Assembly (NCBI GenBank): GCA_964035545.1
Contig: OZ037771.1
Coordinates: forward strand, 3,330,128 to 3,394,127
Reading direction: 5' to 3'
From: Bugula neritina
Taxonomy: Eukaryota > Bryozoa > Gymnolaemata > Cheilostomatida > Bugulidae
Length of the DNA stretch: 64,000 bases
This document shows, piece by piece, positions 6,864-61,539 of the stretch (position 1 is the stretch's first letter; every line of letters begins with the position of its first letter). A program made the translations under genes and the position numbers. Below the pieces are notes generated by a model. The model ran no database searches and was not told the DNA's origin. It saw only the letters and a list, made by a program, of their open reading frames with translations.

Positions 6864-9800
6864 TTATACTGGCGCCAAAGCTGCTGCCGCCGGTGTTACT
6901 GATGCTGTCACCGGTGTTACTGGTGCTGCCGCCGGTGTTACTGGTGCTGCCGCCGGTGTTACTGGTGCTGCTGCCGGTGTTACTGGTGCTGCTGCTGTTA
7001 CTGATGCTGCTGGCACTGTGGCAGCTGATGGAATGGTGATAGGGGGTACGCTGTCAAACATGTCCTGCTCTACAGGCTTCCTCACCCACTTGCCATATCC
7101 CCGAGCTTCAAGATTGGAGTAAAGGTCCCTTTTCACCTCCTGAAAATATCCACACACATGATATTTGATCTGCTGCCAGAAATCTGGTCAGAAAATGATT
7201 GGAAGTTTACAAGAGAGTTTCTTGAACCAATAAGTAGTGATAAAACATGTAAGTACCAATATTTAAGGTGACAATAAATTTTATCACTGTAAGAACTTTG
7301 TCATTTTCTATAAAAGGTGTCTAGAAAATGTGCAGAATGTGTTCTAATCACAAAAAAACTGTTACATTTCGAATATTGGGGTAGAAATCATATCTCAATC
7401 AAAATACTGATACAGGAAATACACAGAGCCAATTACCAACCTGGTATTGTACGGCTTTGTCTTTAGCAGCAGAGTAAATGTCCGCCTCAGAGCTTACAGC
7501 AGTCTTTTGCACTTTCCTAAAAATCAATGACTGAACAGATATTTTGCAAAATTATGCAACCATTTATTAATTACAGTATAACTTGATTATATGATAAATA
7601 TTTTGCTAATCATACTGAATCTACACTCATTGCCATGGCCATAGCCATTAGTTATATTACAATACTTTATATTATGATTGCATGCAACTTTAGGTAATAA
7701 AAGTATTTAGCTAATGGTAACCATATTTAGAGTGATCTATTCAAGAAATACGAAATAAAAAAAGAGAAGACGAAACCTAATTACCATCAAATGCTTACCT
7801 GAACTGAAGAAACAGCATTTTCTTAGATAAGCTGGAGTAGCTGTTGTCAAAGCAGATACCAGTTCTAGTGGTGAGTATTTCTGAGATGTCATCAGTTGAA
7901 AGCCACACAATCCTACAACAACAACGTTGTATTAAATGTGGTAATAAATGATTATGATATGAATCTCAGAGATTCAATGAAAACTATTAGTGAAAAATAC
8001 AAACAGGTATTGAATTAAATGTGGTAATGAATGTTTGTAAGACAAGTTTAATGATCCTAATGAGTGAAAAAATTGGTGAAAAAGAAAACAAATTTTATGA
8101 TTTTAAACAGTGGACACGTTCATTCTTGAAAGTTACTCGGATGAATCATTCAAAATCATAAGGTTATAAAACAGACCTGGGTGAATGATATGTGGCAAAA
8201 AGCAAACTAATTAGTAATCAGCATCAAATTGTATTTAGTTTTCATTTTTCTTGCTTACAAAACTTTTCATCACATCTTTTAAAAGTTCAAATTTTTCATC
8301 GCTGTTGCATTGCACAATATTTAAAAAACGCAAGCTAGAGATGGTTACACAGCAAATTATACGTGAACTCAGCATTTAGAGACAATAATAATGCCTGGGG
8401 TACTTTCTCATATGTAATGAATCATAGGGCAGACAACTCACGAGTAGGTGGGGGGTTTGTGAGTGTCCCGAGGTTCAGGCATTACTGTTCCAATGATCTC
8501 TGGGCAATGATGTCTGTATGGAGCAGGTAGCTTCTCAATGAGCTCTAACTCATTAATACGGCCTTTAACATCAATAAAATAGCAACTGTAATACACAAGC
8601 TCATACTTGCAGACAACACACATATGAGCTATAGAGCAGGTGGGTGTTTACAAAAGGAACAATTACAGATATATTTCAGTTTAGTCACCCTCAAAACATT
8701 AGATACATGACAGCACAAATATCTCAACAACAAAATGTCTCAACAACTTCAAATCAAATCCTCCATAAATATCCAGTATTAGTTTTCGTTCATTCACAAG
8801 TTTTCACTGATCTTGTATATTTGTATGTGTTGCTAGCGAACATATTTACAACTGAAAATATACTGAAGTAAGGCATACGTTGATTACTTCAGCATATTGA
8901 AACATGCCTAGACTATGGGCTTACAACAATCACCATAACTATTAGGTTGGCCACCAGAAATAGCTGCTGTTATATACAGACAGCCAAGAGCTGTTGATAA
9001 ATTTCAAAGACTATCAAATATCACATTCTAGTATGTCATGGAGTACAAATAGACTGGCAGCTAGTATTACTGTATATTAGTTCAGCTATACGAGCTGAAG
9101 GCATGTGTACAATATAATAAACAGATGTAATGAGATACATACCATACAGCCCTCTGTATATATGAGCCTGATTAAACATGCTAGCCACAATGATGCTGGA
9201 GAAATAGACAGGCTGTATCAGCGTACTCAGCAGTGACCCTGTAAGTATTTCATACAACTATCACATAATATATACCTGTATATGTTTATATGTATATATG
9301 TATGTATGTAGGTATATATGTATGTAGGTATGTATCCATAACCATAACTGCTGCTACTCAGCAAAAAACACAATTTGCTAGTACACTGCATACTCACAAC
9401 CTTTAGGTATGCGACATCACGTTAAATCCATTATTCTTATAGAAATAAAAATAACAAACTGTTCTTGAAAACGTGTCGAGTAAATTTACAAGTTTTGAAC
9501 ACAATTACGATCATAAAATACATATCGACCTCAAAGTAAAATATATCAAATATTGACCACTAAGTTGAAAGTCTCTCCTACCTTGAAACCCGAGGACGGC
9601 CCACCTAGCCACCTTGTCACAGCAGGACATGTTCAAGTACCTGTCTCCAGATGCTATCCCATCTAGCACCTGCACCACATTCATTTCCTGTTCATTCACA
9701 GGCAGTGTACCTGTAACAACAACACACACATACTACTGTAAGTGGTGAATTACCTGTAGCAACATACACGTAGGTGGTATACTGTGAGAGTCAAGTGTAA

Positions 9801-12800
9801 ACTATAACTTGTGTACTAAACAACATACATAAATTCAACAATCAATAAACTATTTCGAAAATCTTTTTATAATAAATTGAGTAGTTGAAGTATTGAAGAT
9901 CTCCAACTGGTTATATAACATTTATAAGGATTTACACCATACATTTCCTATTAAGATAGTCAATATAATTAGGCATTCACTATTAAAAACTATTTTACGA
10001 ATTTCATGGTGCATTTCAATTTTTAATGAGAAGACAACTTCTATATATTATGAAAAATCTCTGGTAATAACTATCCAAAAAAGAACAGCCTAGTTACACA
10101 TTGACAGTCAATCACAAACTAGGAAGGTATAATGTAGAACAATCAGGAGGATAAGTACCCTGTCCAGTTTCCATCTTGACCCTCAGTTGACCCCTGCTAG
10201 CTCTCAGAGGATTCGTGTCGATGTTCTCAGATGAACTCTCGCCCTCCTTCAACAAACTGGAGGTGAAGACTCGAGAGTCTCCACAAGGAGGGGAACTTAT
10301 ATACAAGTGAAACTTCACTCCATCCGCCAACTTGTACGGAGCTCCGGAAGGATCTAGAACAGACACGTGAGTGGTACAAGTGACTAGAAACTATATGAAC
10401 CACCAGATTGTTTATTTGAATTACTAATTTATTTGACCTACTAATTTATTTGAATTACAAATTTATTTGAATTGCAAATTTACTTGAATTACTAATTTAT
10501 TTGAATTACTAATTTATTTGAATTACTAATTTATTTGAATTAACAATTTATTTGAATTACAAATTTATTTAAATTAACAATTTATTTGAATTACAAATTT
10601 ATTTGAATTGCAAATTTACTTGAATTACCAATTTATTTGAATTACAAAGTTATTTGAATTACTAATGTATTTGAATTACTAATTCAGCAAAGAACCTGAT
10701 CTAACTTGTTAGTCAAATGCTGTCTGCTACACTAGATTTGATCAAAGAGACCAAAGAGCTGACTGACACCAGAAACACTCACCATTGTTGACAGGCACCA
10801 GGATACTGGGCTGTGAGGCCTGCACCAACTCAACCTGCCTATACAGATATTTCTTCATAGCTCTTCTAACCAGAATCTCAGCGTGCATGTCATTGACTGG
10901 CAGACCAGAGGTTGCGATGAACTCACCGGAAATACATTTCGTACCTGTATAAGACAACCCTAGCTAGTAATATCCTAGATAATTCAGGGTTATACTCAGA
11001 TATAAGACAACTCCATCTAGTAATACCGAAAATACTTCAGATTTGCTATCAAGCCTCATCTGGTCAAGAGAATGATATTACAAGGTTCCAAGTAAGCAAA
11101 TATACAGTGCATATATCTGCTTTTCAAAAACACTGTTAATAAAAAGATATATAAAGCTATTATAGTAAAATCCCAACATAAAACAATACACAAATCATAT
11201 ATTCAAAGTTCTACAAATAGTTTCGAAGAATTAGTTCCAGGGCTACAGCGCAACGTCTACAGGCAGGTCACTTGACACAAACCTGAAGCAACTGCGAGCA
11301 CCTCTGCGGAGGTGAGGTCATCATCTCTGGTCATCACACAACCTGCCAGAACTTTCTTGGCGTGGAACTGAGAGCCGAAAATCGCCATCAGTTCACCATA
11401 CTTCTGCACCACCATGCGTTGGACCTGGCAAGAAACATTGTATATAGAAAGTCCATACGTAAGTAAATGTTACGAAGTTATATGGTAGACCTACTAAATG
11501 TGTTGTAGAGTTTATAGAGGCTCTACTGTTTATTATATGAGAATGCTGAATAAATCCCATCTCTCTTAGCAATTACGGTTCATAGATAGTTTATCACATT
11601 TACCCTAACGAAAAATAGTTGACAAGAAATGAACTCCTGCTATTATGTAATAAAATAAAATCAGGAGTTTACTAGATGAAACATGACTCCTACGGTAACT
11701 AACCTTAGTAGAAAGAGATTGATGGTCCAGCTTTCCAATATCCCCTCTCTTCATATCTGCAGCTGTCTTGGGAGAACTAAAATCCCCTGTCAAAAGAAGA
11801 TATAATGTTATTAAGAGAAGATATCTGCCAGCTATTGCCATAAAATGACCACCCACCAACAGCATGGAAATACGCTTTAATAAAAGTCATCAGTCACTGT
11901 CCTTTGCATAATTTTACTAAACCGTGCACCAAACAGTGAGCTGTGACCACACATAGCCTGTATCCTCAGTTGTTTGTGCAGCAGATGCTGTCCATGCAAC
12001 TGGAGCACCTGTTTGGCTCTATCACTTTCAGTAGAAGGTGGCACTTGGCAGATGACACATGTCAGTAACTTGACTCTTTGCACAGTGACCGACATGTGAC
12101 ACCAGCAGTCAGTGCTACTTTAGTAAGTGCAGTTGCTGCTGTTTGCTGCACACTGGGTGCTATGAGAGCACAGTCACAGAGCGCAGTAAACATGAACACC
12201 TGTAAATACAGAAGTTGTTAGCAAAAAGAGTTTTAAAACCCTACAGGATATGAGAATTTATTCTGTGAAAAACTTGACTCCCTTCCTCTGCCTATCACTA
12301 CTACAGGTTCTAAATATATCTAGGTGGTTTGGTTTCAATAGGTCATACAAATAGCATTGTCATGGTCATATACATTTAAATGTTTCCCATAATTCTAGAC
12401 GGTTTGCTTTATTTTTTATCCATTCTATCTGAAGAAAACACAGTGTTCACGAAATAACAAGTTTTCCACCAACCGCTTTTGACTCTGGAACCAGCAGTGG
12501 AATTTAAATTCAGAAATATCCATAAGGAAATGAATTAAATGTTTTATCTGCTAGAGAAAACTTTTAACTTAGTTGTTTCCAAAACAATGCATGTCAAAAG
12601 TAAAAAACACCCAATTGAAATTATTTTACAAACTTCAAAACTTATTCACGGAATAAAAAGCTTTTGTTTTATGAGATTTCAAACAAAACTGTTTATTATT
12701 CAACAGAATTCAGGGAAACTATACAGGAATGCCTCATTCAAAGTTTTTTTTGTAGGCTTTGCTATTAAAAAACTGAACAACAAGATATATTTCTTCTGTG

Positions 12801-15800
12801 TGGTGTCTAATCACAGAGGAAATAAGCCAAGCTTTAAATAGAACAGATTTCTCATTCCATTGTAAATACTCCACTCATCTTACTGATTAATGCCGGGCAG
12901 AACTCTCTCAAATAGAGTGTTTAGAAACTAGCAGTTTTCACCCTCCGTCCATCCTGCAAAATAATGACTAGAAATGACAACACATACCTAGAGGCAGCAG
13001 TAAGCAAATAGAACAGCACAGTCTTTATCTGGATGACTAGCGAAATTATGAAACATGTAACTTCCTAATGTTAAATGCCACAAAACTACTTGATATAAAT
13101 AAAAACCATAAGGAGAAATCCTAATAAAACTTCGACTTTTTTACAAAGAGAATTTTACTTTGTTTAATAAAATTAATTTAACAAGAAAAAATTAAATTAT
13201 AAGTAGATGCAACGGAAAAGAGAGAATATTAGTGGTAACAGAGAAAGAATAACTGATGTAGAGGAAACAATGCAATGGTTAGAAGAGCATTGAAAAAGAT
13301 GAGAAAACTCCTGAAAACATCAAATGTACACATTACGAGGGAAATACAATCAATAGAATAAAACACAAAACATCCATAAATATCCAACATTATTTGTATA
13401 GGGTAAGGATACAGTGAGGGGGTAACATACCTAAATTAAACTTATGCCCGTACACCTCCACTAAAATCACAGCCGCACAGTTGTGTTTGGCGTGCATCTT
13501 ACTTTTACCAGAGCCTTGGTATTCCTGCAACACGAAGCACACCATTCAGCATATGAAATGACATGAGCTTCCTGTACATCAGGGTAACAAAACTAAAAGG
13601 GGTTTATAGTCGCTATCCCAGTGAGGACCTCTGATGGAAAGGGGTTTTTGTAAGTGGTCTAATAACTTGTTTTCTATTATGGTACAGGAGCAATTATAAC
13701 TGAATGCTCTTCCTAACATCACCAATCGTACTTACTAGAATGTGTTTATTAAGCCATCAATCTAAACCTAGACCACAGAACAGGTTTAAAAGTTCTGCAC
13801 AAAAGGAGAGAGACGCTATAAACTTATAAACCTATATTAGTGCATCTAGTTTAGTCCAACTCACGTGTCCGTCCACAGTAGCCTTGGCTAGGAAAGTGTT
13901 ACCAACTCCTTGTGAACCCAGACATGTCACCTCAATGTTGATTTCTTTATCGACTTTCTCATTCAATATACTCATTGGTGTCTTCTGCAAACAAAGAGAG
14001 ATCCTTGTGAACATTATACGACACATCAGTTGATATTATACAACTCATCAGTTATTATTGTACACAAATCGACAAGAAATATGGTCAAACAATATTTTTA
14101 TATTTAAATCCCAAAATCACAAGTAATCATTTTAAGCTGAGATTCTGCCATTAGGAGACGACATGCTGGCGAGTGGACAGGAAATGAAAAGAGTAGAGCT
14201 TACCGGACCATCTGGATGCAGCACCATTTGGGCCTCCAGCGCTTGTCTAGCAACTTCCTGCTGGGCTTCCGCCGCTGACTCAGCAGCTACAAGTTATAAC
14301 TCAACGTCTTAATTGGTAGACAACACAACAGTACCTCTGAGAGGTACGCAAACAGTGACATGACACAACGTTGACTTGTGGGGCATGTCAAGTATAATCA
14401 ATATCACATTATATGACTACCAGGCTAGTTGCCATATATGGTACTCCAGCAATTACAAAATATAGTGCATATCCACTCGATCTATACACACAAAGATCTC
14501 TAAATATGTTTTAATGTAGGCCTAATTGATAAACAAAAAAGAAGTATTGCTAATATTAAAGTTTCATTACAAATACTATGGGATTCAATAGAAATTTTTA
14601 CAAAATCTCAGAGATTTTATAATGAAAAGGCTTTAATACCCATTCCTTAGCCTACATGAATACGTAGTGTAGACACTCACACGTGGCGCTGTACACTTTG
14701 TCACCGTGTGTGAATGTAGCTTTGTAAAGACTGCTTCCTTCAGATTCAGTCACCTCATACGGTATTGTCTTTTTCTTGAACATTCGCTTGAACTTGGCCA
14801 TTATTGGATTCTGGGGAAAGGCAAAGACAGCATAAATAAATGAGATTAAGAAAGATATGCCTTTAAAATCTGATCGAATTTACTGAAATATTTGCCAATC
14901 TATCTACTGATCACACTCCCTGCCAATCTATCTACTGATCACACTCCCTCCTAATCTATCTACTGATCATACTCCCTGCCAATCCATCTACTGATCATAC
15001 TCCCTGCCAATCTATCTACTAATCATACTCCCTGCCAATCTATCTACTCATCACACTCCCTCCCAATCTATTGCACTCACTCACACAGCTTAAACCACAA
15101 CACCCCATCATATCACTGCATCACAGCACCAGCATATCAAATGCTGGAGACAGACAGACAGAAAAAAGAATACCTGAACAGGTGTAGACGGAGCAGACGT
15201 CAGAGCACTGTTCTGTAAAGCACTGTTCTGTAAAGCACTGTTCTGTAAAGCGCTGTTCATAAGAGCAGCTGAAGCTTCTTCCTCAGTAGCCCCTACAAGT
15301 TTAAGTTGTATGAAAAACTCCCAGCCAAGTGACTTCTATTTTTCAGACAGTCCACAAACGTTCAGTTTAAAAAAATTCAATTCACAAATGATTAATAATT
15401 GCAAAACAGTTTTTGAAAAAAAATCCTATCAACTATTTATAATTTTTCATGTAACATAATTGTAAAATATTTTCTTTTTGTTTTATCACCTATGTGCTTA
15501 ATTAAATTAAAAAGATATTGTTTTACAAAGTTGTAAACTTCAAAACACAATGTAGAAACGGTTGATCATCCACATTATTTCTAGAATTGACAATAAATTA
15601 AAAACTTCAAGAGTCTGGTTACTTTAAGGTAATTACACTCAAAGCCAGAAAACTGTACACATTTCAAGTTCTACTTATCTTTTATATACTCACACTTTGA
15701 ACAATGAAAATATTTTTGACATTCTAAAAGATACGTCCAACAGAGTCACGGCCATCAAAATAAAGTGCATCTTAAAACAAACCAGTTTCAGTAATTGTCT

Positions 15801-18800
15801 GCCCATCAATGGTGGCCGATGCTTTATAGATAGGAGAGTCCTGGGAGTTGTCTGTTTCCAAGTTAATCTGAGGATTCCCAAATCTCTTATTGAACTTCTT
15901 GCTGAGAAAAAATGTTTTCGGGGCTTTCTGCAATCGTGAGAAACAAACAACACATCAGTTCAATTTGCACCTGAGATAACTTACCAAACTGCATTTCTAG
16001 GCAGAGGAAACAGAATACACAAAGCTATGAAATTACACAGTAATGAAAACAGGAGACCAGTAAACAAAATTTCAAGGTAAATTGGCTCCAAAAGACTTCA
16101 CAGGAAATGCACTACCAACAGGAAATGCACTAGTGACAGAAAATAAACGACTCACAGGAAATAAACTACTGACAAGAAATGAACTACTCACAGGAGCCGG
16201 AACGTGATGAGGATGGATAATGCTGGCAGCAGAAGCAGCCAAGATCTTCTGGCAGATCAACGCCTTGGCTTGTTTCTTGTTGCTACCTACAGATGGACAA
16301 TAAGACCATTACTACAGTTAAATATATACCATCAGCTGCTCCACACTCATAAAGGAAATATATACAGAAGGGATTAAATTCTCCAATATTCTGAATGGGA
16401 CAGCTTTGTCTTTGACAAGGACACTGCTGCCAAAGTACCGAATATGCAACTACACAGTAACTATATCAATTCTTTTATCTGAAACTGCCGGCAGATGTGA
16501 GCTATGAAAAATACTTACTAGACCATTTGGCAAATAGATCATCTACTCAATTAGCCAATTGTGGTGCAGAACCCAAGTATATATTCACAGCCCACAGCCA
16601 AATAATGAATCAGTAGAGCAGCGTCAGTAAATCAAGCAGGGCTACTTTAAAACCACCCTGAAGGTGTTCAAGTTGCAGGAAGCTTTACTTCAGTAAAAAA
16701 AACTACATTTTTAATGAAAAAGAGAAAACCAAGCACTTCAAAATATTATCACCACTGTCTGAGAATTGGACAGGTTAAATGGTAAGAATATCACTTAGCC
16801 CCCACCACTCACTCCCCCAATTTAACTGTGTAAAGCAGTAACTGAAATCTGCACCAAGACTAACCTGTCACTTCAAATGGTACTCCATCAATAGTAGTTG
16901 AGAAGTGACATAAGTGTTGGTTACCTTTAACCTCAATCCTGTGCTCCCATTCTAGCCCTGGCCACAGCCTGCCAACTACAGCTTGCGGAGGTTCAACCTA
17001 ACAATTAGTGGAGTACAAGACGTGTCTACACCCCACCGTGTCACTAACACAAATCAGGCATTCGGCAATATAATTCAATACAAACATGGCTTCTGTACTC
17101 GCTGTTACTGATAAATAATCTCAATGAAAAGGAGAGACTAAACTCTAATCGGCAAAATGGCATGAAAAGCTCACCGTAAACTACTTTGCCCCGTTTTAAT
17201 TATATTCATTGAAAAGAATCATCAAACAAACATGAAATAACGATTTTCCTGTGTTTCTATCAGCATATCATAAGCACACTAAAGGCTATACCATAATATT
17301 TATCTCAGAAATGAAACATTAGGATCTCAGTCTACACAACTACAAAAAATGGCCGTTATACTGATAAGTTGAGATGCAAACAAAAACTGCTTAGCAAGCA
17401 TTCTTATGCCAGCTAAATAAGGGGGTGGTATCCGAGCCTGCCTTCAACAGAACAGAGAACTAAACTAAAACACAACGCAAGACCGAACTGAAGTCAAGAA
17501 GGAAGAAAGAATACCCTTTCCTCAGCAGTTATCTCCCCATTCTCTAAGGCTAACAAGATTTTCTGACAGCATTCCATTTTGCATTGTTTCTTCGAAGCAG
17601 CTATAAAACAAAACATTGTGTGAGAGCGCAACTCCCCTTAATATTAAAAACTTGTACAATATCAATACACAATATTATGGAGCAGCCGTAGTCTAGGGGG
17701 TTAGAGTGTTTGCCTAGTAAACACGAAGTGATGGGTTCAAGTCCTAGTAATGCCCATTGGTGATGTTAGGAAGAGCATTCAGTCATAATTGCTCCTGTTC
17801 CGCATATGCATAAGTCCTTAGCCTGCTTTAAAAACCCCTTTCCATCAGGGGTACTAACAGGGATAATGACTTTAAACTTGCAAAAGTGAGTTTTTTTTTC
17901 TCAATACACTATATTAATAGAGACAGAGTAGCCGGTCTATGATAAATCAGTATCCATTGCCTAGTCTTTGGAGTTGTTCTCCCAGAGATCCTGTGTTACA
18001 GTAGAATACTACACATTGAACAACTCTCTTTGAAAGCCAGTCACAGCCTACATAGCCCTATCACTAAAGGTCAAACAAATCAGTCTGTATAGCTTACTAT
18101 CAAAGGGCAAAACAAGTCTATGAGGTTCACTAGGGAAAGCTGAACAGGCTTTAAACATTTTTTTACTAAAACTGCATGTGTATGAGAATCAGTTGACTGA
18201 CCAGTACTGCTGAACACTTTGTCTCCTATAGTAGTTGTCATGGAGATGAGTGGCTGGTTATTCAGCGTAGCCTCATTAGTCTGCTCCCAGAAGATATTGC
18301 TAAACTTCCTTGACACGAGAGATATTGGGTTGTTAGGCTACAAAAATACAACAACTCCCTGTACACAATCGCAAAAGGAATAACTGAAATCATGAAGTCA
18401 ATGAATAAAACTTGTTATTAAAAATGTACACTGGAAGGAATGGTGAGGGTCTAAGTTGGTAAAACGCAATCAGCACAAACTGTTTCCTTTAATTCTCAAA
18501 CTGTAACAACTTCTCTCTCTTGTCAACAGAATTGTATCTGAATCAACTATATGTTATACATATAAACAAGGTGAGACAGATAGTCATATGTGCCCGGCCA
18601 TCTCCAATAAAACAGAAAATCTGAGAGCTTACGTCATTCCCGCCTTCTGCACTCGGTAAGGTAATATCCTGCTGAGCAGGTTCAGCCACTTCCATAGACT
18701 CAGACTTCACTTTCTCCATATGCGGGGGTTTGACTTTGGGCGGAGGCTCAGCTATACTCCCATTGGCTAGTGCCTCCAGTGCTGAGACACACGCCAAGAA

Positions 18801-21800
18801 TTTAGCTTCTTTCTTATTACGACCTGAATGAAACACAACATACTGTAAAACTTTCTCCATCCTGCTTCATCTGATACAGCTGAGTTACTAATCAGAAGTG
18901 AAATATCTTCACAGGTGAGTGGATACACTTACCAGTGCCGTTAAATGTGATGCCCTGCAGTACAGTTGTAGCTGTACACTGCGGGGCGTGTGGAGGCCCC
19001 GCCAGCTGGAAGTCCCACTGCAGTCCTGGGAACTTCAGGTTAAGTTGACTAACAGGATTCAGACTCGTTGTCTCAGTTTTAACCTGAACAACAATGACAG
19101 TGTCAAGGGAGATAATAACCAATAGCTACAGAGTATGACGGGGGGAGGATAACAACCAATAGTTACGGAGTGTGAAAGGGATAACACAGCTTAACTTCTT
19201 ACTTTATTAACAATTTCCTAATTTTACCCTTAATTTCAGAAAATCTTTGCTGCAACTAACTATTGAAGCAGCGAGTCATGAGCTACTCACAGCTGACTCA
19301 CCTTTTTAATGGCTGGAGCCGCGTCAACACCTGGTGCGTCCGTGCTGTCAACCGGAACGGGACGTTTTAGTACCTTTTTAGGCCCCTCTGGCAGAACAAT
19401 AGTGCCTTTCTCTATTGCTTGCAGAATTTGGTCAGCAACAGCAGCCTTGGCTCCCTTTTTAGTTGAATCTAGATAATAGAGCCAAGAGTTGACAACTTCT
19501 GATCGATATTACTGAAAGAGTATATTCATATACTACTCTTTGCATACAGGTAATGCAGACAAGAGGCACATTGATTGTAAGAAGGAGCAGGCTATGGGGT
19601 TCATATTACTGAGAGAGTATATTCATATACAATGCAGAGAAATCAAGTTATAATAATATTAATACCTTCACATGCAGACAATATATAGAACACAGAGAAA
19701 AGTATTATCAGAAGGAGCAGGCTCTGCTACTTCTTACCAGATGCACGGAACTGCTGATGGTAAAACTCCACAGATGCAGTGTGCAGATGGGCATTTCCTG
19801 CGTTCAGCTTAGCTGACTGAAAGTCCCAGACGAGACTGGCAGCAGACAAACCAGCGGCCACTAGCTTGGAGTTCAGCTGGGAAAGTGGATTCGTCAAAGC
19901 AGACTTTGCTGCCTGGCCCTCCTCCTAGCAAAACAAACATGTAGGTTGGTAGGTAATATAAGATAAAAGGTACACCTCAAAGGGCTTGAAAATTCTGTTT
20001 ATCTCACAAAGAAACATGCCAGTGAGATGTGAATCTACGCAAGTTTGTAACAAGGTCTAACAAAGCACATCTTAAAAGATAATAAAGTCTATAAAAGGGC
20101 TCTAAACAGAAATGCATGATTTACATGTCCTGGACTATTCTAACTAGTTTCATGCAATAATTCAACAGTAAAACACATAACACTGTGTGAAGTGATGAGT
20201 CAACACACAACAACACAGATGAATACTTTTCATAAATACAGGGAAACTTTCAAAGCATCAACATTGACACATAATAATTTTCTTCCAAAATATACGAGGT
20301 AAAACCCCAGGGCATTAGAATGTTGATGCACATAGTAACTGCTCACGGCATCTGACAGTCACTAAGGACCTTAAGATGCCATGTTTAAACCACAGTTGTA
20401 CAAACACACCATTTTCTCTTCAGACGAGGGCACAGGGATCTCTAGAAGACCCACAGTGATGGCATCAATGATCCTCTGAGCCGTGGCAGCCTTGGCAACT
20501 TTTTTTGTGTTTCCTGCAGACAACAACCCAATGTATGTGAGGCCTAACAAAAATATCTTTACAAACAAATCAAATCATACATAAATAATGGAATTGTCTT
20601 CCCTCAACTTCAGCACAAGTTTTACACTTTACTTAGGTAACAAACACTGAAGTGTGAAAACTCCCACAAGTGTGCTTACCGAGTCCGGTGAAAGTGGTGC
20701 CAGCCACAGTGGAAAAGCAGACGAATGGCGTCACTTCACCGTTATATGTAAACTCCAGTTTCTCTGAATATTTCTTGGCCTGGAGAAGCTCGTACAGTTT
20801 GGGTATAACGTTAGACGCTGCCGGGTGCTGTCGGATGAATCATCACAACATCATCATACAATGAATAGTATGCGCACTAAATATAACAATAGTTGAAGTG
20901 ATAAGGTGAAGAAGATATTGCCAGCTTGCATGCTGGTAACAGCAAATGAGTAGTTATCTTCCCTCTACACAATATGCGTTCACGAGGGAAATAACTCCCA
21001 TGCTGACTAAAGTATACGTTTAAAACAGTGGCAAGCTCTAAACATATCCCAATACAAATATGCTTTTGTTTAGCTTGAGTTTTTAACTTTAGATTGAGGC
21101 TTGAGTTTAGAGTGTGACTGCTATATTTAATGGGGGAGAGTTTTTCAACCCATAAATATTTAATAAACTGCATTGTTTTTTAAAGCTCACAAATAAGTTT
21201 TATGGTGAAATTATTAAAATTAGCATATCAAATGGTTGGGGATTTATACATATCATTGTCATTATTTACTGTAAAATTTTATATAAGTATGCCTGCTGTA
21301 ATCGGTCTTAGAGTCATGCTTTAAAATGAAGTCCAGTTGCAAATCATCATAACATTTTAATTATTTTAATTACCATAAACTATAAGCAAACTCTAGAACT
21401 GAAAAAGCTGTAGGACTGTGAGTAAAACAGAGTTGCTAAACTAAACGTCAACTATAAAGTTTCTGAATAACTAGCAAACCTTTAGCCAACTCGTACATCT
21501 AACATATCTCAAATATTTTTTGAAACTTCAAGCTAAAATAAGACTCCCATTCAAATTCCAAGGTTAAAAATCAATTAAATTGCCTACTTTTGATCTCTGA
21601 TTCTATTCTGCAGTTATGGATATAAATAGTGTAATTTGTGTCTAATACTTTAAAAGAGCTAAAATAAAACCAATACCTAGTGCCAATAACGAAGTAAGAT
21701 ATTACAGAAACAAACACTTGGAATATTAGTCTGACAGGGGACATAACTACTAACCTCTTCAGGAACGAAGGCTAGGCTGTCACCGAGATACTGCAGCAAG

Positions 21801-23953
21801 TATTTAGAAGCATCATTATATGCATCATTCTGACTACGACCTGTCAATACATACAAAGCAGAGTATTTAGAATGTTCCAGTAAACTACTATAGTGAGAAA
21901 TTGTCTGCCCACAGCTGGGTCTTAACTTCAAAGATAAACTTCCAACTAAAACTCTAAATTAAAAGAACCATTGTTTTCACTCAACAATAATGCCAGATAG
22001 TAAAATGAAACTACCACATGCCTCCAGTTCCATTGAATTGGTTTAAAAAATAAAGAGAAGATTACTCCGCATACCAGTGCCGAAGAAATCGTGCTTTGCG
22101 TACGAGAATGAGGCTACATATATGCGCTCCTCGCCATCAACAACGCGAATATTTTGCACCAAACCAATTAGATTTTTCTGGTTCAGCATCTGAAGGGGAC
22201 TCAAGGCTGGCAGATTCTATAAAGTGGTAGATAGTTCACTATACAATGCTTATCAAACTATACCAAGTGATGTTGTGAGTGTGACTGCTAGGCAAGGGTT
22301 CAAATATGAGCACAACACTTATCAAATACAAGCATCTTTATATTTGCTGGGAGAAAATAACTACCAATATAAGCAGTAAATACTTGCAACAAAGTCACTA
22401 TCTCAAAACTACAATATATCTTCACTAACATGACAATATAGCTACAATTTTAGTAACAAACACTATTTTACAATAAGAAAAATCTTTGAAACATTTTTAG
22501 CAACAAAGTAAAAGCTAAGCATGCTAACTCATCAGTAATACTGTTTTCAGTTTGATTGTCATGACCACTAATATGTGAAAGTAAACATCTTAGACTGAGA
22601 TCTTACTGGTACCTTCAGTTGGGACTTTTGGCCAACTCCACCACGTGCACCCCATCCACGGCCTCGACCACTGACCATACGGGATGTTATTTGAGCGTTG
22701 GCCATCTGAAACACCTGGGCCTGTGGAAGTAGTGGGCCGGACCCATGTCCTGCTGAAGTTTACATGATAACAGTGCATGGTATCTAGCTCAATGACTTAG
22801 TAAGTGTTCACATTGAAGATAAGTCAGCAATCTCACGGGCTCTTCATTTTATAAATGAAAAACATGCTACAGAGTCTAGTGTCTAGATAGTATGAGCATG
22901 ATGATGAGTGATAATATACAGGATGCAGCATAAATGTTCTGTTTTCTTTACAAAAAAAACTATCAATAGCTAAAACATTACAGAAAAAATTTTCAATTGT
23001 AAAACCTCCATCTTGATTTTTACAAGAAATTAATTAAAGTAATACACTGAAATTGAGACCTTCAGTCAGTGTTTACAGCCCATACCTGAGGTATACACAT
23101 CATGGTTGAAGTCCTGGTGACTTTGAGATGTGAAGTTAGGCTTGAAGTCCTGCTGCGATGAAGGAGGTGTGAAGTACGGGGCCCTAGACTGTGAATCTGA
23201 TTGGCTGAACATCGAAGGTGACGGCTCAGCGTGCAACGATCCACCCTATCCGTGTACAGAAAGAATATGGAAATTAGGGCAAGTTGAGATCAAAAATAGC
23301 AAAAAATATAGACTAAACACTTAGTAGCATGTGAACTAAACACTTAGTAGCATGTGAACTGAACATTTGGTGGCGGGTAAACTGAGTGTCCCTAAAAACA
23401 GATATAATAAAGACGAGTAGCCTCACCTTGTGCCAGCCAGACCTCTGCTGCCACCCAATTCTTGCATCTGGTTTGGTGGACTGGTTGGGAGAAGAGTAGA
23501 AAGGAGTAGATGGTGTTTGGGGAGCAGGTTGAGTCCAGTTCTGTGTGCCTGGTGAATACATGATACAATACATGTCTTGATTGTATCATTAGTTCACACA
23601 CAGTAACAAGTTGTACAAAAATTATTTCGAAATATTGATAACATTTTATAAAATCATTTCACCAGATCAAGCTATCTACGGCCCGGTTTAATGGTGGCAC
23701 TACAAGTCTTGCTATAGATAAACTACTAGTTTATGGAAAACTATAGCAAAATATTTTATTTATAATTAGAATTTTAGAAGCCATTTCGAGGCTTCATGAA
23801 TTATATTGATTCTACAGAGTTTAGAAAGAGACTGAACACAGGTCTATGAGTACCTGGGTTGACTGGGTTAGCCTGTGCTGGAGAAGACATCCAATTGGTT
23901 GACTGATGGGACATTCCATTATCGTAGGGGTTGTAATACTGATTGTTTGCCAT
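6864..23953 (-). CDS. ADAR: ADAR-family adenosine deaminase with nine dsRBDs, 1,410 aa
   Basis: Converts adenosine to inosine in double-stranded RNA. Thirty-two exons join in one frame from the ATG at 23953 to the TAA at 6864. Exons 1-4 (23953-23854, 23548-23427, 23245-23086, 22752-22613) encode 174 residues of Gln/Asn/Ser/Pro-rich sequence ending in an RGRGWGARGG patch. No Z-alpha domain is visible. Eighteen exons then encode nine dsRBDs (about residues 175-946, listed separately). A linker exon (11786-11704) and nine deaminase exons follow: 11424-11283, 10944-10783, 10353-10159, 9710-9582, 9238-9143, 8562-8442, 7912-7799, 7516-7441 and 7139-6864. Zinc ligands and the catalytic Glu are present (H1042-A-E1044, PC1099GD, SC1170CDK). 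The base-flipping position is Gln1140 instead of Glu. The tail is a repeat-rich Ala/Pro/Val/Thr extension. Animal ADARs usually have one to three dsRBDs, so this protein is unusually large. The identity is very secure; single exon borders could be off. Confidence 0.93.
6880..7010. repeat. 21-bp coding minisatellite in the ADAR last exon
   Basis: The unit GCTGCCGCCGGTGTTACTGGT (plus strand, with small changes) recurs about four times plus degenerate ends. On the minus strand it encodes the AAAPVTP heptad of the ADAR C-terminus. The plus-strand reading is an open shadow frame. Confidence 0.85.
10418..10686. repeat. 17-bp tandem repeat in an ADAR intron
   Basis: About 16 copies of a unit close to TTTATTTGAATTACTAA, in the intron between deaminase exons 10944-10783 and 10353-10159. 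Copies differ by one or two bases. Confidence 0.9.
13431..13984 (-). other. ADAR dsRBD 9, deaminase-proximal, different intron position
   Basis: Exons 13984-13865 and 13524-13431. It starts TPMSILNEKV and continues NTFLAKATVDGHEYQGSG; helix 2 is GKSKMHAKHNCAAVILVEV. The intron lies earlier than in the other eight domains (between His and Glu, phase 0), so this copy is probably the ancestral ADAR dsRBD and not one of the recent duplicates. Confidence 0.85.
13596..13737 (-). mobile_element. SINE fragment, antisense, in an ADAR intron
   Basis: Read on the minus strand it matches the middle and 3' half of the SINE at 17683-17890: the ATTGGTGATGTTAGGAAGAG segment, TAATTGCTCCTGT, and AAAACCCCTTTCCATCAG. 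The tRNA-like head is missing. It lies in the intron splitting dsRBD 9, in opposite orientation to the copy at 17683. Confidence 0.8.
14204..14810 (-). other. ADAR dsRBD 8 (degenerate helix 2)
   Basis: Exons 14810-14681 and 14286-14204, phase-1 intron splitting a Ser codon. Helix 1 is basic (NPIMAKFKRMFKKK) and the beta region SLYKATFTHGDKVYSAT fits a dsRBD. Helix 2 is SAESAAEAQQEVARQAL, without the KK pair. Confidence 0.75.
14892..15071. repeat. 28-bp tandem repeat in an ADAR intron
   Basis: About six copies of a unit near TGCCAATCTATCTACTGATC followed by ACACTCCC. It lies in the intron between the dsRBD 7 and dsRBD 8 exons. Confidence 0.9.
15174..15927 (-). other. ADAR dsRBD 7 (acidic helix 2) with NSALQ repeats
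   Basis: Exons 15927-15783 and 15292-15174, phase-1 intron in a Gly codon. The beta region YKASATIDGQTITETG is typical, but helix 2 is ATEEEASAALMNSAL, so the basic RNA-binding patch is replaced by glutamates. A 15-bp unit encoding NSALQ is then repeated: four NSAL copies at 15185-15255. Confidence 0.75.
16192..16997 (-). other. ADAR dsRBD 6 (KKxAK intact)
   Basis: Exons 16997-16865 and 16286-16192, phase-1 intron in a Gly codon. The beta region reads HLCHFSTTIDGVPFEVTG and helix 2 is SNKKQAKALICQKILAAS, close to the equivalent part of dsRBD 5. Confidence 0.85.
17515..18337 (-). other. ADAR dsRBD 5 (KKxCK)
   Basis: Exons 18337-18202 and 17600-17515, phase-1 intron (an Ala codon is split). 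Helix 2 is ASKKQCKMECCQKILLALE. The intron between its halves contains a complete tRNA-derived SINE. Confidence 0.8.
17683..17890 (+). mobile_element. tRNA-derived SINE, full-length copy
   Basis: The head resembles a tRNA: an A-box-like TAGTCTAGGGGGTTAGAGTG and a B box GGGTTCAAGTCC about 30 bases later. A tRNA-unrelated body follows (ATTGGTGATGTTAGGAAGAG, TAATTGCTCCTGT, AAACCCCTTTCCATCAGGGG), then a short T-rich tail. Related pieces occur at 13596, 42940, 56690 and 63838. It lies inside the dsRBD 5 intron of ADAR. Confidence 0.85.
18633..19083 (-). other. ADAR dsRBD 4 (KKxAK intact)
   Basis: Exons 19083-18933 and 18823-18633, phase-1 intron in a Gly codon. It starts NPVSQLNLKF, similar to dsRBD 3. 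Helix 2 is GRNKKEAKFLACVSALEAL. A Lys/Pro/Glu linker of about 35 residues follows. Confidence 0.85.
19302..19924 (-). other. ADAR dsRBD 3 (KKxAK intact)
   Basis: Exons 19924-19738 and 19468-19302, phase-1 intron. Helix 1 begins NPLSQLNSKL; helix 2 is STKKGAKAAVADQILQAIE. A Pro/Lys-rich linker follows. Confidence 0.85.
20410..20827 (-). other. ADAR dsRBD 2 (KKxAK intact)
   Basis: Exons 20827-20680 and 20513-20410, phase-1 intron in a Gly codon. Ends with GNTKKVAKAATAQRIIDAI, the classical helix-2 RNA-binding motif. The N-half helix 1 reads VIPKLYELLQAKKY. Confidence 0.85.
21755..22216 (-). other. ADAR dsRBD 1 (degenerate KKxAK)
   Basis: Exons 22216-22075 and 21840-21755, joined by a phase-1 intron inside a Gly codon. 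The N-half shows LSPLQMLNQKN and a beta segment RIYVASFSY. The C-half has GRSQNDAYNDASKYLLQYL, where the lysine pair of helix 2 that binds RNA is replaced by S-Q-N-D. It may fold but bind RNA weakly or act as a protein contact. Confidence 0.7.
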
Positions 23954-25761: not shown

Positions 25762-27262
25762 TTATTTTCCAAATACTAGTCCTGAAATGCCAAATGATGT
25801 TACATCCCTTTCACAAATGTAGTTAACCAGCACTTGACACCGGCCATCCCCCCATTGCAAGTTTGGTGAGATTCCCTTGTAGAAGAGTGAAAGGCAGTTT
25901 TGGCCATTGTAAAGGTTGTCTGGTTGGCCTCGGGTCCAATCAGTGCTTATTATTGGAGTTTCACTGGTTCTGGTTTCCCACATCCAGCGTCCCATGGAGT
26001 TCTTAAAGCCACCTATCCAAAATCCATCAGCTGCAAAAATTTTAGTCATAGTTACTATGTATGTTGTATTAGACTAGATAAAAGTCACCTTAGAGGTTAG
26101 AATTACATATATAAGATGGCTTAATAATAAATAATCCGAATTATAAAAAAATTTACCAACAATCACTAATTAGTACACCAACACATCATGCATATAAATT
26201 TATAAAAATCACAAAAAGCTCATTAGTAAAACATATGACCAATTAAACATGGTGTTCAACATTCTATAGCCACATGCATGTAATCTCTTGGTTAAGCTCA
26301 TCAGCTAATTTAAAACTTTGAAATCATTGACTGCTTCTTTGGAAGACATTTTATAGTTATTTTGTTATCAACCATAAGAATTGCTCTGTGTAATAATTAG
26401 CACCTGAAAGGAATGTATTGGTAGGTAGCACAAAAATACCTGTTTACTTACATACCTAAATGTGTTTCTATCAAATTTTTTTTATATAGACATCTACAGA
26501 TTAAAATATTTTTTATTCTATCTTGTTACTTTTTGCTTTGTAAATCACATTGTAACATTCTGCACATGTATTGCGTTGCATATCAAGATTAAATAAATAC
26601 TGCATCTACTATTTTGTTTCTTATAATATAATGTTAACAATACTCAATATAAACTCACTTAATCCATGGCTCAATCTGTAGCCTTTCATCCATGCTATTT
26701 CATCACGAGACTCTAGTACAGCGAGTACACCACCCAACTTTAGGCATGCTTTCTGGGCATTGTGCCAAGAAACTCGGCTTGAGGTCACAAACAAATAGCA
26801 TGAGCCAGACAAGCCTTTCACCCACCCATTACCACACGTACTCTCCGTAGAGGCTGTAAAAACATGTCTTGATACAGGAAAATAATACAAATGGTTTCAG
26901 AAACACGGGCAGAGATTGTTATGTATTGATTTGATGCAATGTGTAGAGGATCACTAGAAATTAGGCAACACTATTTAAAAAAGTACACTGACAATGACAG
27001 ATTTTAGTTGTTTGCCATTCAAACCAAAATAAATTAGATATATTGAAATGTAAATATAATATACATGACAGATGATACATTCTAAAGATTGAGGCTGTTT
27101 AAAGAATGTTGCAAATGGTGCATATTTTTACAATGTTTTAATACCAACTTCCATTAATAATACATATAATACACCAACATGATAAAAACAGTTCAGTTTA
27201 TGCTTACCGAGTAGAAAGAAGTAAGAGAGTAATATCAGCACACTCTTTGCTAACTGAACCAT
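25762..27262 (-). CDS. Secreted C-type lectin, 172 aa
   Basis: Three exons in frame: 27262-27208, 26853-26659 and 26030-25762. Exon 1 encodes a signal peptide (MVQLAKSVLILLSYFFLL). The rest is one C-type lectin-like domain. It has CGNGWVKGLSGSCYLF at its start, a SWHNAQKACLKLGG helix, the core W88-I-G-G, Q119-P-D121 in the long loop, W143-G-D, C148, and the terminal NYIC156ERD. In this family QPD usually goes with galactose-type ligands and EPN with mannose-type. The downstream Ca/sugar motif is usually WND and is WGD here, so calcium-dependent binding is likely but not certain. There is no membrane segment or second domain. It is probably an extracellular lectin of immune, mucus or adhesion type. 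It lies downstream of an unrelated gene on the same strand. Confidence 0.85.
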
Positions 27263-59938: not shown

Positions 59939-60985
59939 GTTGCATCTGTCTTCTGCAAGTCTCCCACAGGTGAGCGCTGACTTTAACAAGGAAAGCAGAC
60001 TGCGCAATGAGGGCTCCACAGAACGTAATACTTGAGTTTTTATCAGCAGTGAGCTTCAAGTCTCTATACTGTTTACTAAGCAAATATACTTATGCCTCCT
60101 CCTGATATCATACCACTGCTGATAGTGCTTCAAACTTCCTTATTCCACTAACAAACGTTCTGAGCTCCCACTATAACCTTAGCCAGCCAATCACATTGTC
60201 TTTTACATCGAAGCTCTCTGGACATGTATTTTCAATAGCTTTTGGGAAAACAGCTACTACTAGTAAATGGCTTTAGCCTCTTGACCTTCCTCATTGTGTA
60301 GCCTAAGTTCTTATGACTAGTGTGGGGAGAGGGGGTAGAGCATCAGTCCCGTAAATGTGACATGTAAACAGCTATATAGCAAGCAGACGCAGAACTGGAT
60401 GAACAATCATATTACAAAGTACAAAGCAAATATTATGGCTCTACCAACCCGATTGTTAAACTGAAAGAACTTGATTGCTATTATGAGTTGAAAATTCCTT
60501 TCACAGCCACAGCAAGGATAGCAAAAGATGTTGAAAGTGTTTGTATTCATGGAGTTTGTAGGGCGTTTTCTGTGTTCATACAATTCAAAGAGAATTTTTT
60601 GACACAACAAAAGATGTTTAGCTTCTTTGAGTACATTCAAATGGAGTTTAGAATTAGTATCCCTAATTAGGGATGAGTCATATCTAGTGAGCATATTGGT
60701 CTAGCAGGAACCTATAACTAATCCAGGAAAAACAAGTGGCATTAAACAACCGGAGTGCCTCATAATGTAGTCATCCTATATTACAAATGAATGAAATGCA
60801 GTGAAGTAACTTACTAATTGGGAGGGGAAGAGAGAAAGGGCAAAGGTGGGAAGAGCAGTAACAGGAGATTTGAGGTCATACAATGTTTAGACTAATAAAT
60901 AATGAAAGTGTATTAATAGTTTATAAATATCTCCAGAAAAAGGTGATTGACATCATACAATAAAAAGTTGCAGTCTACCAGATGC

Positions 60986-61382
60986 GTATGCTACATGCTA
61001 CATGCTACATGCTACATGTTACATGCTACATGTTACATGCTACATGCTACATGCTACATGCTAAATGCTACATGCTACATGCTACATGCTATATGCATAC
61101 ATGCTACATGCTACATGCTACATGCTACATGCTACATGCTAAATGCTACATGCTACATGCTACATGCTACATGCTACATGCTACATGCTACATGCTACAT
61201 GCTACATGCTACATGCTACATTCTACATGCTAAATGCTACATGCTACATGCTACATGCTACATGCTACATGCTACATGCTACATGCTACATGCTACATGC
61301 TACATGCTACATGTTACATGTTACATGCTATATGCTACATGCTATATACTACATGCTACATGCTACATACTATATACTACAT
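60986..61382. repeat. 7-bp satellite ATGCTAC, about 56 copies
   Basis: Nearly perfect ATGCTAC units for almost 400 bp, with rare variants (ATGTTAC, ATGCTAA, ATGCTAT). Because 7 is not a multiple of 3, all three plus-strand frames stay open and repeat HATCYML, giving false open frames. Confidence 0.95.
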
Positions 61383-61539
61383 GTTTTCAAACAAAGAGGA
61401 ACTGAAACAAACCAAGTTTTTTACTAAAAAGTACATGTAATTATATACAAAAACTAAACTTTCAACCTATATTACATGCGCCTATCTTTTATCCTTTGCC
61501 CTATATCCTGTATTATATTCCAATGTACCCTATATGCTA

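Follow-up and report, generated by a model that had tools for sequence, protein, structure and literature searches.

The described systems closest to the gene reported here include human ADAR2 (ADARB1) with its engineered mutant E488Q. E488Q is reported to edit faster, bind RNA more tightly and contact the orphan base more closely than the wild-type enzyme (PMC11334849, PMC8809894). In the structures described, Gln488 inserts in the same manner as Glu, with an orphan C contact of 2.85 versus 3.11 Å, and low pH, which protonates the Glu, renders wild-type human ADAR2 more active (PMC11334849). While the human enzyme is faster once Glu488 is replaced, nearly all animal ADARs examined retain Glu. 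E485 and E488 are described as ultra-conserved among more than 30 ADARs from 16 non-nematode animals, and an uncharged residue 488 in an editing enzyme has a natural precedent in E488M, which is found in the ADR-2 proteins of Caenorhabditis and of the genera closest to it (PMC9989829). In the account given there, C. elegans ADR-2 lost Glu488 in a species that edits, but the Met is accompanied by E485D and a shifted motif, whereas the Bugula neritina enzyme considered below keeps E485. Neither a natural Gln488 nor a bryozoan ADAR is the subject of any title or abstract in the literature listed, which leaves out most subscription journals.

The gene and its flipping-loop codon

The window, a stretch of 64,000 nucleotides, is part of B. 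neritina chromosome 7. On its minus strand, an ADAR gene was modeled in 32 exons joined by 31 GT-AG introns, running from 23953 down to 6864 with an open frame of 1409 amino acids to a single stop. The model was assembled by hand without transcripts and is least certain in its N-terminal exons and start ATG. The features are as follows.

22613..23953, minus strand: N-terminal exons N1–N4, encoding a low-complexity N-terminus; putative start ATG at 23953
13431..22216, minus strand: 18 exons N5–N22, encoding nine dsRBD-like units and linkers, with one intron inside each unit
11704..11786, minus strand: exon A, linker from dsRBD unit 9 to the deaminase domain
11283..11424, minus strand: exon B, beginning of the conserved deaminase domain
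10783..10944, minus strand: exon C, TKCISGE and NDMHAEILVRR (zinc ligand His, catalytic Glu)
10159..10353, minus strand: exon D, PPCGD zinc ligand, RNA-binding loop, RGQLR and the flipping loop up to METGQ and the first base of the next Gly codon
10160..10162, minus strand: CAG codon, Gln at the flipping position (human ADAR2 residue 488; model residue 1139), from the exon sequence and a numbered alignment
9582..9710, minus strand: exon E, remainder of the loop (GTLPV), dimerization-helix region, MSCCDK zinc ligand
9238-9143, 8562-8442, 7912-7799, 7516-7441 and 7139-6864 with the stop, minus strand: exons F–J, C-terminal part of the deaminase domain

The first-pass annotation had reported a Gln codon in the flipping loop within 10159-10353, with no strand given. 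This reading holds: the interval is exactly one exon of the minus strand, bordered by the acceptor TTCTAG and the donor GTACTT, and it is the sole strong tblastn match in the window. The exon ends in GGA CAG G and exon E begins with GT ACA CTG, which gives METGQGTLPV once spliced; between the CAG at 10162-10160 and the intron lies one further base, the first of Gly489. The residue is number 1139 of the present model rather than 1140 as first annotated. In a numbered alignment it falls on human ADAR2 residue 488, so that the proposed equivalence to E488Q is in register. Of the structures that can be set beside it, PDB entries 5ed1 and 5ed2 stand at the top of the match list and carry Gln at this position as an engineered mutation, while the sequence of 1zy7 has Glu.

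The Gln could in principle be a sequencing or assembly error, or be bypassed in transcripts by an unannotated alternative exon carrying Glu, which the first-pass annotation had named as a refuting observation. No point in support of either was found. The B. neritina assembly tzBugNeri2.1 is described as having approximately 132-fold HiFi coverage and a QV of 53.7 (PMC11480708), and an independent database protein, P0014, has the identical METGQGTLPV loop; an assembly error is therefore unlikely. A tblastn search and a motif scan of the window yielded neither a second exon D nor a flipping loop bearing Glu. Taken together, this explanation is barely credible.

Self-editing of the CAG codon, which would yield Arg, was considered separately and rejected as there is no inverted repeat of at least 14 bases in 9500-10800. 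The folding energy of 10360-10000 is also ordinary (z = 0.12). By eye, an AT-rich tandem repeat with a unit of about 17-20 bases is seen at 10400-10690, inside the intron that directly precedes exon D.

An ADAR2-type protein with an extended dsRBD array

The gene is an ADAR2-type ADAR. Its product matches the A_deamin family (PF02137) with an E-value of 2.5e-80 over profile positions 1-329 of 329, and the HAE, PCG and SC zinc and catalytic residues that mark an ADAR deaminase domain are in place. The catalytic equipment that the first-pass annotation had called intact is indeed complete (H394, C451, C516, E396, RGQLR and SC(C)DK). T375, K376 and R455, rather than N/R/A, form the signature shared by human and oyster ADAR2, although one abalone ADAR2 (2a) does not have it (PMC6651903, Table 2); the Bugula protein carries all three. 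It departs from ADAR2s in having Gln at 488. With Met reported at this position in Caenorhabditis ADR-2 (PMC9989829), Glu488 is a conserved ADAR2 trait rather than a defining one. Pfam, run on the complete protein at an E-value of 0.1, detected no Z-alpha domain of the kind expected in an ADAR1. A search of the genome with profile PF02295 gave no match, its controls being silent as well.

Three database searches (thresholds 1e-3, 1e-10 and 1e-10, the second scoring the 8000 candidates with most words in common) yielded 116 distinct proteins among the matches listed. The closest relatives among them are P0001 from the bryozoan Watersipora subatra (1305 amino acids) and P0014 (429 amino acids, from a JGI contig), each 56% identical to the Bugula protein over approximately 400 amino acids. 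Over aligned positions, the deaminase domain of the Bugula protein shares 41% identity with human ADAR2 (40–42% across the three proteins). All 20 residues on a zinc and inositol hexakisphosphate (IP6) list drawn up for this study are kept in all three; P0013 keeps 15 of 20, and P0093, a frog protein resembling ADAD1, keeps 13 of 20. That list leaves out L511 and E689, which are placed around IP6 in PMC11120146. Both are changed in Bugula, to Tyr and Arg respectively, and T513 is replaced by Asn. In exons F–J (6864..9238), Y658, K662, Y668, K672, W687, K690 and D695 are kept. A short tandem repeat at 6867-7010 on the minus strand encodes the C-terminus itself, which is made of degenerate APVTPAA repeats.

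The surfaces that meet RNA and the dimer partner are less conserved. Twelve of the 18 RNA contacts of human ADAR2 are kept (the list being that of PMC11120146 minus 488 and plus H460), with differences at 348, 460, 473, 475, 486 and 495; this count resembles that of other ADARs of the same divergence. The dimerization helix keeps 3 of 9 residues, below most of the ADARs compared. W502 is replaced by Leu in Bugula, while D503 is kept (Glu in Watersipora and P0014). In the measurements given for human E488Q ADAR2, W502A lowers the rate to 0.056 and an Ala at D503 lowers it to 0.001 (PMC7641318). An AlphaFold2 model of P0014, calculated from a 27-row alignment, had a mean pLDDT of 77 with much of the core above 90 and the flipping loop below 50; the geometry of the loop is therefore not predicted.

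The nine dsRBDs claimed in the first-pass annotation stand as anatomy, since nine dsRBD-like units form a very long array ahead of the deaminase domain, where an ADAR carries at least one, and they align one to one and in order with those of Watersipora. As nine RNA-binding domains the claim is too generous: the KKxxK motif occurs at its usual place in six units (2-6 and 9), in Bugula and Watersipora alike; matches in the window gene's units 7 and 8 lie near the beginning of the unit and are not counted. Three of the nine units may thus not bind RNA. With each unit cut out singly, PF00035 scored above the cut-off for four (2, 4, 8 and 9) and below it for unit 6; units 1, 3, 5 and 7 had no dsrm match. 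On the whole proteins, Pfam identified four dsrm stretches in Bugula and six in Watersipora. Human ADAR2 has two dsRBDs. Relative to the human enzyme, the Bugula protein is further set apart by T486 and L491 and by its altered RNA loop and dimerization helix. Watersipora P0001 shares the co-linear nine-unit architecture and differs in the loop, with Met for Gln at 488 and Ala486.

The source name of P0001, "A-to-I RNA editing regulator adr-1-like", together with the many dsRBDs, could be taken to mean that these proteins are regulators that do not edit, in the manner of ADR-1 or the ADADs. ADR-1 is described as inactive and without residues crucial for catalysis (PMC9989829), whereas the catalytic Glu and the zinc ligands are intact in all three proteins, the loss of catalytic residues that marks ADADs and ADR-1 is absent from the Bugula gene, and the tree presented below groups it with ADAR2s. 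A regulatory role in place of editing is very unlikely. The name of P0001, which keeps its catalytic residues, is probably misleading in suggesting an inactive regulator.

Residue 488 among relatives and host paralogs

The alignment comprised 117 rows (the 116 proteins and the window gene), nine of which have no readable loop (P0092, P0093 and P0110-P0116). Of the 108 readable rows, 102 have Glu at 488, four Gln, one Met and one His. All 102 Glu rows present it in a GEG context (99 GEGT, 2 GEGS, 1 GEGA), and many of these are fish ADAR2s and so not independent. The Gln rows are the window gene, P0014, P0109 and P0012. P0109 is another natural GQGT (KIEKGQGTVPT); P0012 has a degenerate loop, and Gly487 is missing from it as well as from P0010.

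With the loop columns excluded, Bugula, P0014 and Watersipora formed a clade with support of 100/100 in a 37-row tree and 100/99 in a 35-row tree, the latter excluding ADAT1 and ADAD rows. From its place in the tree, P0014 is inferred to be bryozoan. In the 35-row tree a split with 97/96 support separates human ADAR1, two other Bugula loci (C4 and C2), Actinia and Biomphalaria from 30 rows that include human ADAR2 and the window gene with its clade; deep forks among the ADAR2s are weakly supported. Glu is found at 488 in none of the three clade members: Bugula and P0014 have Gln and Watersipora has Met. Thus, the alignment with related species that the first-pass annotation had proposed indicates that Gln is not fixed. 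The variant of this known enzyme is natural and real, and it belongs to a lineage rather than being a one-off.

Inside the clade, Watersipora and P0014 pair at 92/74, and an AU test rejects neither Bugula with P0014 (p = 0.317) nor Bugula with Watersipora (p = 0.287). Parsimony suggests a change from Glu to Gln on the stem followed by Gln to Met in Watersipora, a reconstruction that falls short of proof because the branching is not firm. P0109 and P0012, both on long branches, join the bryozoan clade at 40/83, so that Gln may have arisen once or repeatedly; the count of three changes at 488 depends on this weak fork.

The genome was searched as 295 contigs totaling 215,847,546 bases, nearly the whole of the published assembly, which is given as 320 scaffolds and 216,009,554 bases (PMC11480708). 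Among the best candidates scored, the A_deamin family search identified three multi-exon host loci: the ADAR2-type gene, C4 and C2. By their description, the ADAR1, ADAR2 and ADAR/D-like genes of squid make up a similar spiralian set of three (PMC10278661). C4 and C2 are ADAR1-type on the tree, and C4 scores 275 bits against human ADAR1 versus 202 bits against ADAR2. With both read from joined pieces, the zinc and IP6 list is kept at 19 of 20 positions in C4 and at 16 of 19 in C2. Both read GEG with a GAA codon for Glu. A fourth A_deamin match (G000:C144:32084-32617) is a gene that looks ADAT1-like and has an open frame only under the ciliate code, with its in-frame TAA and TAG translated as Gln; its contig therefore probably comes from a ciliate, as a contaminant of the assembly or an epibiont.

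The position of the loop intron sets the ADAR2-type gene apart from its paralogs. In C4 (AAG ATA GAG ACT G, intron, GT GAA GGA ACT) the intron interrupts codon 487, leaving the codon for Glu as the first complete one of the following exon. The junction in C2 is identical, with an exon start of ttag followed by GT GAA GGT ACT after a stretch reading LRTKMEDG. In the ADAR2-type gene the intron is in the same phase inside codon 489, six nucleotides downstream, so codons 487-488 (GGA CAG) end the upstream exon, unlike those of the paralogs. Provided that these introns are homologous, a shift of two codons would have carried the junction across exactly the residue that changed.

Residue 488 could have been rewritten with little functional effect, under relaxed constraint or splice-driven drift, perhaps in the course of such a shift. 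The variation at 488 inside the clade (Gln, Gln, Met) and a stem branch of 0.77 would fit this explanation along with the displaced junction. The homology of ADAR1 and ADAR2 introns is nevertheless assumed, the DNA compared being that of Bugula's own genes alone, and two point changes (GGT GAG to GGA CAG) suffice without any shift. Moreover, the full set of zinc and IP6 residues and the order of the dsRBD units have been kept between species that are 56% identical in the domain, and Gln and Met are both long and uncharged. Drift with little effect is accordingly judged improbable.

Predicted effect of Gln488

The explanation that best fits these observations, with a probability of roughly 55%, is that the gene encodes an active ADAR2-type A-to-I editase whose flipping residue, originally Glu, became uncharged within the lineage (Gln, Gln and Met). 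It draws on the clean 32-exon frame, the monophyly of the three proteins (100/99) and the absence of Glu from 3 of 3 members compared to its presence in 102 of 108 rows. By analogy with human ADAR2, from which it differs in that Gln488 was engineered there and is natural here, the dsRBD array, with six units carrying the lysine motif, would load the enzyme onto long double-stranded RNA. The METGQG loop would then enter the minor groove, as in the human crystal structures, with Gln filling the space of the flipped adenosine. If human E488Q is a guide, the uncharged Gln would act as hydrogen-bond donor toward the orphan base with no prior protonation, and the intact zinc and IP6 site is predicted to deaminate the base. 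Since Gln needs no proton, flipping should be faster and less dependent on pH than if this scaffold carried Glu. The flipping rate is likely higher and the choice of sites looser than in a Glu version of the enzyme; the editing level of the animal need not be higher. Human ADAR2 mutagenesis, from which the first-pass annotation extrapolated, makes hyperactivity of the Bugula enzyme plausible; the further suggestion made there, of an enzyme tuned for heavy editing, goes beyond what the present observations directly support.

The effect of Gln in the Bugula background may differ from that of human E488Q, because 6 of 18 RNA contacts, 6 of 9 dimerization-helix residues, L511 and E689 have changed. 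Met, moreover, cannot form the hydrogen bond of Gln; what the lineage shares is therefore the loss of charge and not the chemistry of Gln.

The differences from human ADAR2 in RNA contacts and dimerization helix, equal in number in each clade member, allow for an enzyme that is not hyperactive overall, in which an uncharged residue restores normal activity after the RNA surface or the dimer contact was weakened. The loss of W502 in Bugula would be in keeping with such compensation, as would the finding that most changes in 442-460 and 469-495 reduce the activity of human ADAR2 (PMC8809894). The comparison with equally diverged ADARs that bear Glu speaks against it, as these have lost as many contacts: 12 of 18 are kept in P0008, 11 of 17 in P0076, 12 of 18 in P0077, 12 of 16 in P0090 and 7 of 16 in human ADAR1. 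The dimerization helix of the three proteins is below most, but P0090, P0091 and P0013 retain Glu with 2 of 9 residues. Compensation is therefore considered somewhat unlikely, and an active editase with an altered flipping residue is preferred.

A broader proposal, offered tentatively although it has some chance of being correct, is that a conserved brake on ADAR2 was lost in bryozoans. Glu488, a residue most effective in its protonated form, would have been replaced on the stem of the sampled clade by an uncharged residue, possibly with the two-codon junction move, leaving a naturally fast, pH-insensitive and mismatch-tolerant editase joined to a nine-unit dsRBD array. If this is true, Glu would be kept in other animals to limit editing and not to perform it. 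With a Glu-less lineage and two Glu-bearing ADAR1-type paralogs in one genome, the idea of Glu as a brake is testable. A natural deaminase domain that already carries Gln, with its predicted activity, is also of interest for RNA-editing tools.

Within the window, the ADAR gene is flanked by a BED zinc finger open reading frame at 2537-2845 and by C-type lectin open reading frames at 25765-26896, all on the minus strand. Further away, at 60947-61402 on the plus strand, lies an open frame built from a short repeat (YMLHATC units).
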